Assembly: GCA_030765585.1 (NCBI GenBank)
Contig: JAVCCJ010000058.1
Span: forward strand, 1-43,564
Length of the DNA stretch: 43,564 bases
Direction: 5' to 3'
Source of the DNA: Candidatus Zapsychrus exili
Lineage (GTDB): Bacteria > Omnitrophota > Gorgyraeia > Zapsychrales > Zapsychraceae
This document shows, in pieces, positions 24,045 through 39,813 of this stretch (within the stretch, counting starts at the first letter, position 1; every line of letters begins with the position of its first letter). A model generated the notes under the pieces. That model did no database searches. It was not told the DNA's origin and saw only the letters and a program-made list of their open reading frames with translations. The position numbers were made by a program, and so were the translations under genes.

Positions 24045-27000
24045 TTAAACTCCTACTGCCACTTCTTCTTTCTTTCCCTGTTTTTTATCCTCAGAAAACT
24101 TAACAGAAACAATTCTGGAAATTCCTGTTTCTGGCATAGTAATTCCATACATAACATCAGAGATAGCTATTGTCTTTTTATTATGTGTTATCACTATAAA
24201 CTGTGCTATTTTTGCAAAGTCTTTTAAAAGATAGCTAAACCTATCTACATTTGCCTCATCTAATGCAGCATCAATTTCATCAAGCACACAGAATGGGCTT
24301 GGATTAACCTTAAACACCCCAAAAATAAGTGCTATCGCTGTAAGAGTCTTTTCTCCACCAGAAAGCAAACTAATGCTTTGTGGTTTCTTCCCAGGAGGTC
24401 TTGCTACGATATCAATACCGGACTCCAAGACATTGTCTGGGTCGAGCAAGACCAACTGGGCTTCTCCTCCTCCAAAGAGCATTCTAAAATAAATTCTAAA
24501 CTCTTCGCCAACCTTAGTGAATGTATCCATAAACATTCTTCTAGTTGAACGATTTATTTTGTTTATAGTACTCATCAATTGTGATTTCGCTTCTATCAAA
24601 TCACTTTGTTGCTTCGTTAAAAATTCAAATCTCTCTTTTAATTCTTCATATTCTTCAATAGCAACTAAGTTAACACTTCCATAAGAATCACATCTTTTCT
24701 TAAGTTTTATAAGACCATTACTAGCTTCTTCTATGTCTATGTCGTCTTCTTCTAGCAAAAACTCGCAATTAAACACTTCTTCTTTTTTAACAGGCGCTTG
24801 TGTTTCTTCTTGTAGCTCCCCCTGTGATTCCAGTTGTGGACCCTCTAAAGGTCTTAGATGAGGTCCATATTCTGGTCCTAGTTCAGCATCGCTTACTTCT
24901 TTCAATTGCTTATCTTGAGCAGCAACCTCTTCCTGCGATTCTTCTCCCTTAGCTTCTTGCAAGACATCTAAAGCAACCTGCCTTTCTGACTCTTCTCTTT
25001 CTAATCTTTGCTGTTTAGCTTTTTCTAGAGCTTCATCAAAATCCATTTTATATGTCTGAACAAGACGATCTTTTATACTCTGAGACTTAAATGAAAATTC
25101 TTGTTCATTAAGCTCCTGACCATGTCTTTCTTGTTTTAGTTCATCTAATTTAGTTTCTAGTTCTTTCATTCTAGAACGAGAATTATTTATACTTCTTCCA
25201 ACTTCTTCCTTTTGAATTTCTTGCTCAGATAAAACAACTCTTAAAGAGTCCTTCTTTATTTTTACTTCTTCGTTTTCAACGCTTAATTTTTCTATCTCTC
25301 TTCGATATTCTTCGTTCTTCGCACCATAACCTGAATACTCATCCTCTATTTTCTTTATTTCTTCAAGCCAACTATCTAAGGACTCCGAAAATGTTGTTTC
25401 ATTATCTTGATTTACTCTCAATTTATCTCTTTGAGAGTTAAGCTCTGTTTCAAGCTGAGCAATAGACACCGTAACGTCTTCTTTTTCTTTCATCTTTTGA
25501 TTAATAGATTCTTGCCCGCCCTTAATTGCATTCTGCCCTGAACCTATGTCTTGATTGACGGTATCAAGCTGATAATTTATTTCTTCTTCTTTCTTTCTTG
25601 TGCTAGAAAGAAGTTCTCTTACTTCTTCGGTTTCAGAATCAACTAACTCTAATTCTCCTGATAATTTATTAATTTCTTCTAATACATCTATTTTTTGAGA
25701 TTCTAAAATTGAATAATCTTTTTCTTTATTCTGAAGATCCTCTATTATTCTTCTTAAGATATTCATTTCATCTTCAATTCGTGCCTTAAGATTCTCTGCT
25801 TGTGATAATAATTGAACTATTTCTCTTTCGATTTCTTCCATTTGAGAAGATATATTCTGAGGGTCTAGTTCAATAAACTTTGTTTCACAAATAACCTCAA
25901 ATAAACCCGACAAATTACTAATCTCTTCTACTCTATAACTTAAGCTCTTTTTAAGAGTCTCGAATTTTTCGGAGCTGAGGGGCAAAACTTCTTTGACCTT
26001 ACCAATAATCCCGGTATGATGCTCCAAAGGTGGTGCTTGCGTTATGAATCGCCCCTCAACTACTGGATCCGGCATGTCTTGATACTGGACATGCAGCTTC
26101 TCTATAAACTCTTTCTGCGACTTAAGAAAGAGTTTCTTTTTATCTAATGTATCAATTGATTCTTCTACCCTAGCTAAATCTTCTCTCAATCCATCTATTT
26201 GACTTCCCTTGTTTTCTTTTTCTAAATCTAACTCACCTACAACAATCTTTAATCCATTAATTTGACCTTCAACGCTTTCAAATTTTTCATTTATATCTCT
26301 TTTTTCATCTAAGACCTTTTGATTTTCTATTTCTAATCTCTTCTTTCTTGCTAAAGCACCCTGCATTTCTTTAATAACGTCAGTAAGCTCATTACGAAGG
26401 TTGACTTGTTTAGATGTTAAAACAAAAATTCTTTCTTCAGTTTCTTTTATTCTTGATCTTTCGCTCTCTATAGCTCTTTCTATTCTAGATAAATTATCTC
26501 TTTTATTAAAAAGTACACTCTCATCTTCCAAAATTTTTTCATTTAAGAAAATAGTATCTTGCCTTAACTCTTCAATCTTTGTTTGTTGATTTTTGCAGCG
26601 CTCTATTAGTTGCTCTTTTTGTTCCTCCAACTTCTCTGCGTTCTTAATCAAATTGTCAATACGCTCTTCATTAAACCCAATCTGCCTACTATTTAAATCA
26701 ATTTGACTCTCAAGCTTTATATCCTCAGATCTAATATCACCTATTTTTTCATCAATCTCACCTAGATGATTAATTTCATTCGTCAAAGTCTCTGAAACTT
26801 CATCAATACCCAAATCAAATTGAGATTCTTTCTCTCTAATAGACGACAACCTTTCGCCTAAAGTGCTTTTTTGTCTTTGTATACCACCTAATTGATTCTT
26901 TGCTACTCTTAACTCAAGTGTCTTTAATTTCTCAAATTCACCTTTATATTTTCTTGCCTTATTAGCTTGACGCTCTATTGAACCTATTTGCCTTTTTACT

Positions 27001-27590
27001 TCAACAGCTATATCATTTATTCTAAGAAGATTGTTCTCAGTGTCCTTAAGCTTATTCAACGCTTCTCTCTTCTTTGCCTTATATCTTGTAATTCCAGAAG
27101 CTTCATCAAAAATCATTCGTCTTTCTTCTGGTTTAGCACTTACAACCAAATCAACTTTTCCTTGTTGAATCATAGAATATGCTTCAGCTCCAATTCCTGT
27201 ACCCATTAAAAGCTGTTGTATGTCTTTAAGTCGCGCTGTTTTCTTATTAAGCAAATATTCGCTTTCGCCAGAACGATGCAGTCTTCTTGTAATAATTACT
27301 TCTTTCTCATCAATATCAAATGCGCCTGTCTTATTAGAGAAGTGCAAACTAACTTCAGCAAGATTAACGGGAGGCCTCTTATCAGTTCCACTGAATATTA
27401 CATCTTCTCTTGCTGATGCTCTCAGCTCTTTTATGCTTTGTTCTCCTAATACCCAACGTATCGCATCAAAGACATTGCTTTTGCCGCATCCGTTAGGACC
27501 AACAACAGCTGTAATTCCAGATTCAAAATTAAGGACAGTCTTGTCAGCGAATGATTTGAATCCAAATATCTCTAATTTTCTAAGGTACAT
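24045..27590 (-). CDS. smc: chromosome segregation protein SMC
   Basis: SMC is the ATPase of the bacterial condensin. This 1181-residue protein starts at the ATG at 27590 (GGAG seven bases upstream). The N-terminal head has Walker A GPNGCGKSN (31-39) and the C-terminal head LSGGEKTL (1076-1083) and Walker B CVLDEIDAAL (1101-1110). Coiled arms run about 170-500 and 585-1000. Oddities: the centre (about 501-585) lacks the usual GY.G..G hinge signatures and is only about 85 residues, and the C-terminal arm has a Gly/Pro/Gln-rich insert (about 884-940, e.g. LGPEYGPHLRPLEGPQLESQ). It follows a tiny HTH gene by 9 nt; its partner scpB is about 10 kb away. Confidence 0.95.
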   Translation of the reverse strand: MYLRKLEIFGFKSFADKTVLNFESGITAVVGPNGCGKSNVFDAIRWVLGEQSIKELRASAREDVIFSGTDKRPPVNLAEVSLHFSNKTGAFDIDEKEVIITRRLHRSGESEYLLNKKTARLKDIQQLLMGTGIGAEAYSMIQQGKVDLVVSAKPEERRMIFDEASGITRYKAKKREALNKLKDTENNLLRINDIAVEVKRQIGSIERQANKARKYKGEFEKLKTLELRVAKNQLGGIQRQKSTLGERLSSIREKESQFDLGIDEVSETLTNEINHLGEIDEKIGDIRSEDIKLESQIDLNSRQIGFNEERIDNLIKNAEKLEEQKEQLIERCKNQQTKIEELRQDTIFLNEKILEDESVLFNKRDNLSRIERAIESERSRIKETEERIFVLTSKQVNLRNELTDVIKEMQGALARKKRLEIENQKVLDEKRDINEKFESVEGQINGLKIVVGELDLEKENKGSQIDGLREDLARVEESIDTLDKKKLFLKSQKEFIEKLHVQYQDMPDPVVEGRFITQAPPLEHHTGIIGKVKEVLPLSSEKFETLKKSLSYRVEEISNLSGLFEVICETKFIELDPQNISSQMEEIEREIVQLLSQAENLKARIEDEMNILRRIIEDLQNKEKDYSILESQKIDVLEEINKLSGELELVDSETEEVRELLSSTRKKEEEINYQLDTVNQDIGSGQNAIKGGQESINQKMKEKEDVTVSIAQLETELNSQRDKLRVNQDNETTFSESLDSWLEEIKKIEDEYSGYGAKNEEYRREIEKLSVENEEVKIKKDSLRVVLSEQEIQKEEVGRSINNSRSRMKELETKLDELKQERHGQELNEQEFSFKSQSIKDRLVQTYKMDFDEALEKAKQQRLEREESERQVALDVLQEAKGEESQEEVAAQDKQLKEVSDAELGPEYGPHLRPLEGPQLESQGELQEETQAPVKKEEVFNCEFLLEEDDIDIEEASNGLIKLKKRCDSYGSVNLVAIEEYEELKERFEFLTKQQSDLIEAKSQLMSTINKINRSTRRMFMDTFTKVGEEFRIYFRMLFGGGEAQLVLLDPDNVLESGIDIVARPPGKKPQSISLLSGGEKTLTAIALIFGVFKVNPSPFCVLDEIDAALDEANVDRFSYLLKDFAKIAQFIVITHNKKTIAISDVMYGITMPETGISRIVSVKFSEDKKQGKKEEVAVGV

Positions 27591-27599
27591 AAAATTCTC

Positions 27600-27773
27600 C
27601 TATTCCTGGTTGCTATCAAGCCAAGCATCTATTTTTTCTTTCTTAAATCTCCATTGACCAACAGTTTTAATGGCAGGGATCTTTCTCATCTTTACCCATT
27701 CGTAAATAGTTCTCCTCTTTACGCGTAGGTAATCAGCAACTTCGTCTATTGTCATTAGTTCTTGAAATTGCAT
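27600..27773 (-). CDS. small helix-turn-helix (excisionase/AlpA-type) DNA-binding protein
   Basis: The ATG at 27773 opens a 57-residue frame ending at a TAG (27602-27600). The sequence includes MTIDEVADYLRVKRRTIYEW followed by VKMRKIPAIKTVGQWRF and KKEKIDAWL. This is the HTH_17/excisionase-type winged helix found in MerR-like and phage Xis proteins and in many stand-alone chromosomal regulators. An AGGAG lies 14-15 nt upstream, a little far. It is 9 nt upstream of smc and its stop overlaps the region carrying the smc ribosome site, so the two should be co-transcribed. It could autoregulate the operon through the repeat tract upstream, but that is inference. Confidence 0.85.
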   Translation of the reverse strand: MQFQELMTIDEVADYLRVKRRTIYEWVKMRKIPAIKTVGQWRFKKEKIDAWLDSNQE

Positions 27774-27845: not shown

Positions 27846-27874
27846 AATTTATTACATATCTTTACACTTGTCAA
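27846..27874 (-). promoter_or_regulatory. probable promoter for the HTH-smc operon
   Basis: On the minus strand TTGACA (27869-27874), a 17-bp spacer and TAAATT (27846-27851) lie about 70 bp upstream of the HTH start codon. Confidence 0.5.
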
Positions 27875-28077
27875 CACTTTTGTCACTTTTTTTCTGTATT
27901 AGCCTAGATTAGACTATTATCGACTATTTACATCAACATCATATCGTTTAAATCACTTTAAATCAATTGTAATTCTTTGTTTTACATTTACTTACATTTA
28001 TTACCATATATAGCTTATCTTTGCATATACTTACATAAAGTTACATATACTAACATATGATGACATATTATGACATT
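27851..28077. repeat. AT-rich tract of 10-bp-phased short repeats upstream of HTH-smc
   Basis: The 515-bp gap 27774-28288 has no gene. Within it, ACAT/ACAC cores recur every 10 bp. Six consecutive units at 28021-28080 read TTGCATATAC, TTACATAAAG, TTACATATAC, TAACATATGA, TGACATATTA and TGACATTAAA. Two more are at 27981-28000 (TTTACATTTA, CTTACATTTA), and a weaker set at 27851-27880 overlaps the promoter spacer (ATTACATATC, TTTACACTTG, TCAACACTTT). The part 27910-27970 keeps the phase less clearly. I see nothing else in 28081-28288 except a weak AT hairpin near the etfA stop. Confidence 0.6.
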
Positions 28078-28288
28078 AAAATAACGCTTTTAGGTGAGAA
28101 ATTGAATAAAGACAGTGTTTATTACGGGATTTATTAGTTACCTATATATTAAGGAAGGGACTGTTGAAGTTTTCTGTAGAGCTAAAATTGCTTATTGTAC
28201 TTCTAAATTAAGAAAAAGCTTCCTATTGCCATAGTCCACAAGATAGACTACAGGATTATTGCAATTTTTTATCAAAAATTACAATCGC

Positions 28289-29485
28289 TTATTTATTTAA
28301 AGCTTCTTTGAATTTGCGCGTCAAAAGAGGAACGACTTGGAAGACATCTCCGACTATACCAAAAGTCGCAACACCAAATATAGGTGCATGAGGATCTTGA
28401 TTGATTGCTATAATAATATCAGCAGACTGCATTCCAACTAAATGCTGAATTTGTCCTGATATTCCACAAGCAATATATATCTTAGGACAAACTGTCTTAC
28501 CAGTTTGACCAACTTGATGAGAATATGGTATCCAACCCGCATCAACTGCAGCACGAGATGAACCAACAGCGCCACCTAAAACCTTAGCCAATTCTTCTAT
28601 CATCGCAAAGTTTTCAGGAGCTTTTATTCCACGACCACCTGAGACAATAATATCGGCTTCAGTTAAGTTAACTGTTGAAGTCACTTCTTCTACGATATCT
28701 AAAATCTTTGTTCTAGATTTATAAAGACTTTTACTAAGCGTTTCTTCTATTATCTCACCCTTGCGAGTAGTATCTAATTCACTTTCTTTAAAAACTTTAT
28801 GACGAACCGTTGCCATTTGTGGTCTATGATTCTTACTAAGAATCGTTGCCATAATGTTTCCACCAAAAGCAGGTCTAGTTTGAAGCAAAAATCTTTCTTT
28901 TTCATCAACATCTAAAGCAGTACGATCAGCAGTCAAACCAGTATGAAGTTTAACCGCAACACGCGATACAAGTGATCTACCAATAAAAGTAGCGCCACAT
29001 AATAAAATTTCAGGCCTATATTTTCTGACCAAATTAACTAAAGCATTTGTATACGGCTCGTCGAGAAAATGTTCTAACTCGGGTGCGTCTATTAAATAAA
29101 CCTTATCTGCTCCGCGATGAATCAATTCTTTCGCTTTATCTTTTACATCTTTTCCTAATAATACACAACAAAGTTCAGTCTTTAGTTTGTCAGCAAGCTC
29201 GCGACCTTTTCCTAATAGTTCATAAACAACAGGTTGAACAGCACCTCGCTTTTGTTCGCCAAATACCCAAACACCTTTATATTCTTCTAAGTGAGGAGTT
29301 TTAGACGCTTCTCTTTTAATTTCAATTGCATCGAAATTACAAGACTCTTCACAAGCGCTACATAAAGTACATTTATCATAATCAATAACTGCTTTTTTTG
29401 ACACCATTGATATTGCTGCAAATGGACACGCCTTGACACAAAGTGAACAGCCGGTACATTTATTTTTTATAATTTTAATGCTCAT
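28289..29485 (-). CDS. etfA: electron transfer flavoprotein alpha subunit with N-terminal ferredoxin domain
   Basis: This 398-residue protein is a fusion. Residues about 1-62 hold two 4Fe-4S motifs, CTGCSLCVKACPFAAI and CTLCSACEESCNFDAI. The EtfA part follows, with the C-terminal FAD domain in SGGRGIKAPENFAMIEELA, VGSSRAAVDAGWIP, QVGQTGKTVCPKIYIACGIS and AINQDPHAPIFGVA. Such fused EtfA subunits occur in anaerobes, for example in the caffeyl-CoA reductase-Etf complex, where the extra clusters serve electron transfer to ferredoxin. The start overlaps the etfB stop (ATGA). No obvious terminator follows; a weak hairpin lies at 28257-28283. Confidence 0.93.
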   Translation of the reverse strand: MSIKIIKNKCTGCSLCVKACPFAAISMVSKKAVIDYDKCTLCSACEESCNFDAIEIKREASKTPHLEEYKGVWVFGEQKRGAVQPVVYELLGKGRELADKLKTELCCVLLGKDVKDKAKELIHRGADKVYLIDAPELEHFLDEPYTNALVNLVRKYRPEILLCGATFIGRSLVSRVAVKLHTGLTADRTALDVDEKERFLLQTRPAFGGNIMATILSKNHRPQMATVRHKVFKESELDTTRKGEIIEETLSKSLYKSRTKILDIVEEVTSTVNLTEADIIVSGGRGIKAPENFAMIEELAKVLGGAVGSSRAAVDAGWIPYSHQVGQTGKTVCPKIYIACGISGQIQHLVGMQSADIIIAINQDPHAPIFGVATFGIVGDVFQVVPLLTRKFKEALNK

Positions 29486-38820: not shown

Positions 38821-39813
38821 TTACTCTAGCACAAAATGCCCTTCAGTGCACTCGATCAGCTTAGAACCTAGACTTAAAACAATCTCTTTTTCGCGTTTAA
38901 TTGCCTTGTAGTCAATAGCAGCTGACAGGAGTTCTTTGGTGTAATCGTGCATTGGATTATTGAATATCTCATCTGAGTTTGAATACTCAACAATTTTACC
39001 TTTGTACATTACAGCAATTCTGTCACATATTTTTCTAATAACCCTTAAATTATGAGATACAAACAGATACGTAACATTAAATTGCTTTTGCAAATCTAGC
39101 AATAAATCCAAAATCTGTTGTTGAATAATAACATCTAAAGATGATACTGCTTCATCTAAAATAAGCAGCTTTGGATTCATTACAAGCGCACGCGCGATTG
39201 CAATCCTTTGACGCTCACCACCTGAAAATTCGTGAGGATAACGATCTAAAATATCTGTTGGCAATTTAACGGCCTTTAGCATCTCAATTATCTTCTTCTC
39301 TACAACCTCTTTGTTTGTCATCTCTGTACCCGCGCTTGTCATCCCTGTACCCGCGCTTGTCATCCCTGCGAAGGCAGGGATCTCCTTCAGAGAATCAGCA
39401 GGCTTAATTTCTGAGATTCCTGCTCGCCTCGAGTCGAAGCCGCGGGCCTTCACAGGAATGACAAATGTATTATTCACCGCGCTTAATCCTTCAGAGATAA
39501 TATTTCTAACAGTAAACCTTGGATCAAGACTACTGTAGGGGTCTTGAAAAACCATTTGAACATTTGAGCGAAAATTCTTAAGCTCAGCACGTTTAGCGTT
39601 TGTCAAATTCTCTCCATCAAAAATAATTTCTCCAGCGTCCAAAGACAAAAGTTTAATTATTACTTTTGATAAAGTTGTCTTGCCGCATCCAGACTCACCA
39701 ACAAGACCTAGATTCTCCCCTTCTTTTATTGAAACAGTAACATCGTCAACAGCCTTTATCGTAGACTTTTGTTCCTTAAAATATTTTTTTATGTTTTTAA
39801 GCTCTAGTAACAT
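38821..39813 (-). CDS. oppF: oligopeptide ABC transporter ATP-binding protein OppF, with in-frame repeat insertion
   Basis: This is the second ATPase of a peptide transporter. Started at the ATG at 39813 (GGGA upstream; an in-frame TTG at 39834 is less likely) it has 330 residues. Walker A is GESGCGKTT (39-47), the Q-loop VQMVFQDPYSSLDP, the signature FSGGERQRIAIARAL, and Walker B LLILDEAVSSLDV. Between the Q-loop and the signature, residues about 117-165 are an insertion (KEIPAFAGMTSAGTGMTSAG and flanks) translated from a palindromic repeat at 39317-39463. Removing it restores the usual spacing (EGLSAVNN joined to TNKEVVEKK). The usual OppF C-terminal extension is shortened. It is the last gene of the operon. 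Confidence 0.9.
   Translation of the reverse strand: MLLELKNIKKYFKEQKSTIKAVDDVTVSIKEGENLGLVGESGCGKTTLSKVIIKLLSLDAGEIIFDGENLTNAKRAELKNFRSNVQMVFQDPYSSLDPRFTVRNIISEGLSAVNNTFVIPVKARGFDSRRAGISEIKPADSLKEIPAFAGMTSAGTGMTSAGTEMTNKEVVEKKIIEMLKAVKLPTDILDRYPHEFSGGERQRIAIARALVMNPKLLILDEAVSSLDVIIQQQILDLLLDLQKQFNVTYLFVSHNLRVIRKICDRIAVMYKGKIVEYSNSDEIFNNPMHDYTKELLSAAIDYKAIKREKEIVLSLGSKLIECTEGHFVLE
39317..39463. repeat. 147-bp palindromic repeat element inserted in frame in oppF
   Basis: The element starts with two 21-bp units (GTCATCTCTGTACCCGCGCTT at 39317 without its last base counted as new, and the near-identical copy at 39338), then GTCATCCCTG at 39359. It ends with CAGGAATGAC, an inverted match of that start (GTCATYCCTG). 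Its core has GCGAAGGCAGGGATCT. The length is 49 codons, so it leaves the frame intact. A sister element with the same 21-bp spacing lies at 42985-43165. Confidence 0.7.

Follow-up and report, generated by a model that had tools for sequence, protein, structure and literature searches.

BldC of Streptomyces (PDB 6AMA, 6AMK) is a small protein with a single winged helix-turn-helix (HTH) of the HTH_17 group. It binds direct repeats head to tail, reads an AT-rich minor groove together with a YpG step, coats promoters, and strongly distorts and shortens the DNA (PMC5859096). Phe21, Trp31 and Leu43 form the hydrophobic core of the head-to-tail contact, position 43 being charged or polar in classical MerR proteins (PMC5859096). 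Apl of phage 186 also binds direct repeats one turn apart, with one monomer per repeat and weak single sites; neighbouring monomers cooperate strongly, and the protein spreads into non-specific sites and represses promoters (PMC7498355).

The locus described here resembles the BldC system in the type of protein, in having oriented direct repeats of the AT-rich plus YpG type, and in promoter sites that vary in length. It departs from it in the unit, a 10-bp ATGTAA in place of the 9-bp AATTN4C of BldC, in the number of repeats, about 23 against the 2–4 of described BldC sites, and in scope, since one dedicated operator linked to smc was found here whereas BldC has a regulon. Direct repeats one helix turn apart are likewise shared with Apl and related recombination directionality factors. 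Those, however, are phage or element proteins that act at att sites with an integrase, while here a chromosomal gene is fixed beside smc: no integrase or att linkage of the kind expected for TIGR01764 proteins was seen, and smc lies downstream of the HTH gene in 79/79 orthologous loci with enough contig to check. The excisionase RdfS (PDB 8DGL) has the same HTH_17 fold and forms a helical head-to-tail filament, but it carries an extra N-terminal oligomerisation helix, has no consensus motif and serves in mobile-element excision (PMC11963761). Classical MerR regulators (SoxR, BmrR) have the winged-HTH fold in common with the present protein; they are symmetric dimers on inverted repeats in 19–20-bp spacers, with a coiled coil and, in many cases, an effector domain, whereas the present protein has 57 residues in all, a promoter spacer of 17 bp, and direct repeats in one orientation.

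The smc locus and its small HTH protein

The window (the whole stretch of 43,564 nucleotides that was analysed) is contig C85, one of the 129 that make up a 2.04-Mb genome. This genome and most of its relatives are metagenome-assembled, and nearly all of the relatives that bear a name belong to Candidatus Omnitrophota. The smc operon region lies on the minus strand, with the HTH_17 gene first and then, after 9 bp, smc (Table 1); the two presumably form one transcription unit. A gap of 515 bp separates the HTH gene from its upstream neighbour, a ferredoxin-ETF alpha gene ending at 28289. Elsewhere in the window, at 39315–39368, a 21-bp unit (TTGTCATCCCTGTACCCGCGC) is repeated in tandem, in 2.6 copies that are 96% identical.

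Table 1. Features of the hth-smc region, in window coordinates
Feature	Position	Strand	Remarks
smc	24045..27590	-	TIGR02168; starts 9 bp past the HTH stop codon
57-aa HTH_17/excisionase-family protein, proposed to bind the operator	27600..27773	-	profile, structure and fold matches
hth-smc promoter, sigma-70-type	27846..27874	-	TTGACA 27869-27874, 17-bp spacer, TAAATT 27846-27851
Whole tract, proposed operator: 23 consecutive 10-bp units in one register	27850..28079	-	G at constant phase in every unit
ATGT unit in promoter spacer	27854..27857	-	shares the array register; offset +17 from -35
Degenerate units, TpG/CpA phase retained	27880..27979	-	lag 10 z 5.0; 10/10 rows in phase, shuffle maximum 9
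Second cluster, clear units (ATGGTAATAAATGTAAGTAAATGT)	27980..28010	-	row display and pattern search
Strong block, six units at exact 10-bp steps	28021..28080	-	proposed nucleation site

Gene content around smc varies among the relatives. In several of them a gene named by eye as acyl-carrier-protein-like separates smc from the HTH gene; such a gene is upstream of smc in L135, L136, L141 and L142, and it directly precedes smc in some genomes that have no HTH orthologue. In L089, an intein of about 545 residues, which carries a LAGLIDADG endonuclease domain as well as splicing domains, splits the SMC Walker A motif (GPNGCGK; locus L089:2693–5170). The insertion in the SMC of L100 starts at the same place, and insertions in L079 and L099 were judged solely from an equal shift of the SMC match.

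Pfam HTH_17 matches residues 6–55 of the 57-residue protein with 67 bits, and the excisionase family TIGR01764 scores 62.3 bits, above its domain cutoff of 28.8. Three further profiles score below their cutoffs: NCBIfam NF033787 for BldC (30.3 bits, E 2.8e-7; curated cutoff 77 bits), the MADS1 defence protein NF047737 (75.0 bits; curated cutoff 80 bits) and Pfam MerR (20.8 bits; cutoff 28.2). The best PDB sequence matches are two BldC-DNA complexes. The AlphaFold model (pLDDT 87) has BldC as its closest fold (Z 8.8 and 8.5), with RdfS (Z 8.6) and other excisionases near it in a ranking where Z differences under 1 are ties.

Like members of the BldC family, the protein is a single small MerR-like winged HTH. 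Leu16, Trp26 and Val38 align to Phe21, Trp31 and Leu43 of BldC, and their positions are invariant or at least 90% conserved in an alignment of 22 sequences; as judged from this alignment, the hydrophobic positions of the BldC head-to-tail contact are present. Arg30, by which BldC reads the G of the YpG step, corresponds to Glu25 here and to Asp in relatives. Because of this replacement, TpG must be read through another contact than in BldC, and the invariant Arg21 is a candidate for the role. In its mode of action the 57-residue protein is probably similar to BldC and Apl, although we do not file it as a member of the BldC family.

A tract of 10-bp units in one register

The sequence-only reading had reported a 10-bp-phased tract of short repeats just upstream of the hth-smc promoter and proposed autocorrelation against shuffled sequence as a check. 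Over 27851–28077 the identity at lag 10 is 0.59 (z 8.5), whereas 1000 dinucleotide shuffles reached at most z 4.7, whatever the lag, so the phasing is confirmed. Lags 20, 30 and 40 give the next peaks, and the neighbouring 28081–28288 gives no lag-10 signal. When 27850–28079 is written in rows of ten bases, 23/23 rows carry a C (G on the minus strand) in one two-base phase; in 3000 shuffles the mean was 10.8 rows and the maximum 16/23. The degenerate part 27850–27979 taken alone has 13/13 rows in phase (maximum 12 in 3000 shuffles).

The unit in the sense of the genes is ATGTAA/ATGTCA. The six units in a row that had been noticed at the distal end are found on the plus strand as GCAT at 28023 and ACAT at 28033, 28043, 28053, 28063 and 28073; in gene sense the block reads ATGTCA, ATGTCA, ATGTTA, ATGTAA, ATGTAA and ATGCAA. 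The tract does lie beside the promoter, yet 'just upstream' has to be corrected, as it runs through the promoter at 27846–27874. A unit lies in the spacer at 27854. Weaker units are present as had been said, and the register is continuous over 27850–28079.

The tract in the window repeats every 9.9–10.0 bp, and 10.5 bp gives no peak. On DNA of 10.5 bp per turn, a step of 10.0 bp would rotate each unit by about 17 degrees relative to the last, so that the row of units would complete about one revolution by the end of the tract. The proposal of binding on one DNA face thus holds locally, but over 230 bp the units drift by about one helical turn, a geometry that would suit a filament of superhelical form and not attachment to a single fixed face.

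Conservation across Omnitrophota

Orthologues of the HTH protein were found in 57/190 sampled genomes of the phylum (E below 1e-18), and 81 distinct regions upstream of orthologues formed the comparison set. They were divided by sequence motifs at the recognition helix into group A (VK[KR]RT) and group B (V[TS]RRT). The combined lag-10 z over 37 group-A upstream regions is 10.7, and lags 30, 40, 20 and 50 are among those that rank after it; these related sequences are not independent samples. Pairs of ATGT at exactly 10 bp number 44 in group A against 1.3 expected, and 45 in group B against 0.3 expected; in the opposite orientation there is 1 such pair in group A and 0 in group B. Within 800 bp upstream of smc there are 0 exact 10-bp ATGT pairs in eight genomes in which no HTH orthologue was found, at E below 1e-12 in incomplete genomes. 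The array is therefore present in relatives with the same HTH-smc order, where the sequence-only reading had said that it should be sought.

The layout of the array follows the protein. VK[KR]RT proteins go with long arrays, V[TS]RRT proteins with two strong units, and in loci whose protein has Leu in the wing (GLW) the array is lost. The group-B operator is nearly invariant, ATGTTAAAGAATGTAAAGATTTTCC-TTGACA, with tATGTtAAagAATGTaAAgATTtTCCTTGACA as a nearly fixed block; it occurs in 41/44 loci, and its second unit lies 14–15 bp before the -35. Seven of the 30 group-A GQW loci have no ATGT pair at 9–11 bp, and the seven GLW loci have isolated units at most. In the GLW subgroup (L027, L068, L071, L093) a single ATGTCA element, ATGTCAAAGAAC-like, stands 68–105 bp upstream of the -35 and seems to replace the lost array.

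These comparisons bear on whether the DNA could be curved intrinsically, or whether an AT-rich, UP-element-like tract could be phased by chance. The tract is 76% A+T, and AT-rich DNA is common upstream of promoters. Yet the period summed over 30 group-A relatives peaks at 9.8–10.0 bp (z 11–13) and gives z 1.5 at 10.5, what is conserved is a TpG step and not an A-tract, and the one-orientation ATGT pairs exceed shuffles more than 30-fold. Intrinsic bending, which had been offered as one explanation, is disfavoured by the period and by the conserved TpG, and curvature or chance is hardly credible. Fourier power at 9–12 bp is equally high in other regions of the window and is not distinctive alone; the claim is therefore carried by the lag, register and comparative tests.

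Phase-locking to the promoter

A TTGAC-type promoter match is found in 79/81 orthologous upstream regions, and the units keep phase with it. In group B 77/90 ATGT occurrences fall in one phase relative to the -35, and in group A 83/130 fall in two of ten phases; counted by locus, 23/28 group-A loci fall in four adjacent phases. TpG steps outside ATG are also enriched in phase, which supports the weak intermediate units. Sixteen of 28 group-A loci have TG at promoter positions +18/+19, and 12/28 have the full ATGT there. This TG lies 2 bp off the position of an extended -10 TG, and it therefore reads as an operator unit.

The position of the units relative to the promoter matters for the sign of regulation. 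Taking the observations together, the tract is probably the operator of hth-smc, on which the HTH protein would assemble cooperatively and repress its own gene and smc. The same operator and protein could instead serve activation, the filament wrapping or bending the DNA toward RNA polymerase or contacting the edge of the -35, with positive feedback or a growth-linked switch as the result. The strong group-B units are immediately upstream of the -35 at a spacing of 14–15 bp that hardly varies, a position typical of activators; they end just before the -35 and not over the promoter, which also suits activation. The -10 of group A (TAAATT/TAAAGT) is poor, and distortion and shortening of DNA are known for BldC (PMC5859096). 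Units in the window and in most group-A loci, however, enter the promoter spacer, and protein bound there should block the polymerase; moreover, the -35 is a perfect consensus, as suits a repressed promoter. Activation is thus unlikely, if still the most serious competitor. Repression by coating is likeliest in the window because the anatomy of the units matches the nucleation and spreading of Apl (PMC7498355).

Strong copies of the array are confined to one promoter

A four-unit ATGT search of the 2.04-Mb genome with up to 2 mismatches returned the tract as the only array, and three-unit patterns outside it were as frequent as in the reversed control (7 vs 7). In the group-B genomes every operator match with at most one mismatch is at the HTH gene, and five members of the phylum without an HTH match, when searched, gave no operator match with fewer than three mismatches. 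L134, L137 and L138 have a few four-unit matches away from the HTH gene, near genes that by eye are queD/queC-like, murI-like, aminotransferase-like and Bax1-like. Few in number and beside unrelated genes, these matches were set aside as chance or, at most, minor targets. An RNA element in the tract was also rejected; Rfam gave no RNA family, and the array is mostly upstream of the -35.

That another regulator and not the neighbouring HTH protein binds the array is improbable. Several other HTH_17 proteins are encoded in the genome, and the link between the HTH protein and the array comes from position and comparison. Against this, the array co-occurs with the HTH gene, its layout varies with the recognition-helix and wing sequence of the HTH protein, and strong copies are confined to the hth-smc promoter; moreover, the upstream DNA of seven HTH_17 paralogues of the same genome, read by eye, shows no comparable array. 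One of the other HTH_17 genes, C48:52167-52322 of the same genome, encodes a second paralogue about 46% identical, which is kept in many relatives (L002 and equivalents); its upstream DNA in this genome is without a comparable ATGT array.

A loading or segregation site had also been suggested. Apart from its adjacency to smc, nothing in the locus points to SMC loading or chromosome segregation, although spreading is known from ParB and other DNA-binding proteins that form filaments. The array has an orientation and keeps phase with the promoter, it is tied to the HTH gene, and it was not seen upstream of smc in the eight genomes in which no HTH orthologue was found. The parS palindrome TGTTTCACGTGAAACA occurs on another contig at C77:6954 with a 2-mismatch copy 35 bp away at C77:6989, and parS has no match in C85; the pair (C77:6954-7004, L202) suggests a canonical ParB loading site there. 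A loading function for the array is accordingly very improbable.

Proposed mode of action

Under the operator reading, each 10-bp unit (AT-rich plus TpG, consensus ATGTAA/ATGTCA) would take one HTH_17 monomer, adjacent monomers touching head to tail. Binding would start on the strong distal units at 28021–28080 and 27980–28010, and the filament would then spread over the degenerate units into the promoter spacer. The units at 27880–27979 are proposed to be weak sites that are filled through such cooperative spreading. Above a threshold concentration the -35 and -10 would be coated and both hth and smc repressed, and the outcome would be a steep negative feedback on condensin dosage.

Cooperative binding by the HTH protein had been put forward from the position of its gene beside the array. 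The co-occurrence of gene and array, the match of layout to protein group, the phase-lock and the predicted BldC-like fold all agree with it, and from them we infer direct binding by the 57-residue protein, its cooperativity and spreading, and repression rather than activation.

More tentatively, and with greater doubt than hope, the system may be a condensin-dosage switch in much of the phylum. A filament of about 23 sites would nucleate distally and zip into the promoter, the length of the array and the strength of its units would set a counted threshold for smc, and the filament might possibly organise the DNA of the locus.

Operators of the BldC/excisionase type are known already; new here are the unusual length and the tie to condensin. 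Literature searches found no description of a dedicated smc regulator in Omnitrophota, and the finding proposes such a regulator, along with the operator that it would use, in a lineage most of which is uncultured. With it, the direct-repeat binding mode of BldC and the excisionases would gain a new operator consensus and a natural array of unusual length. Evolved operators of about 23, 2 and 0–1 clear units, each with its matching protein, would offer a system for the study of cooperativity and of site-number thresholds.
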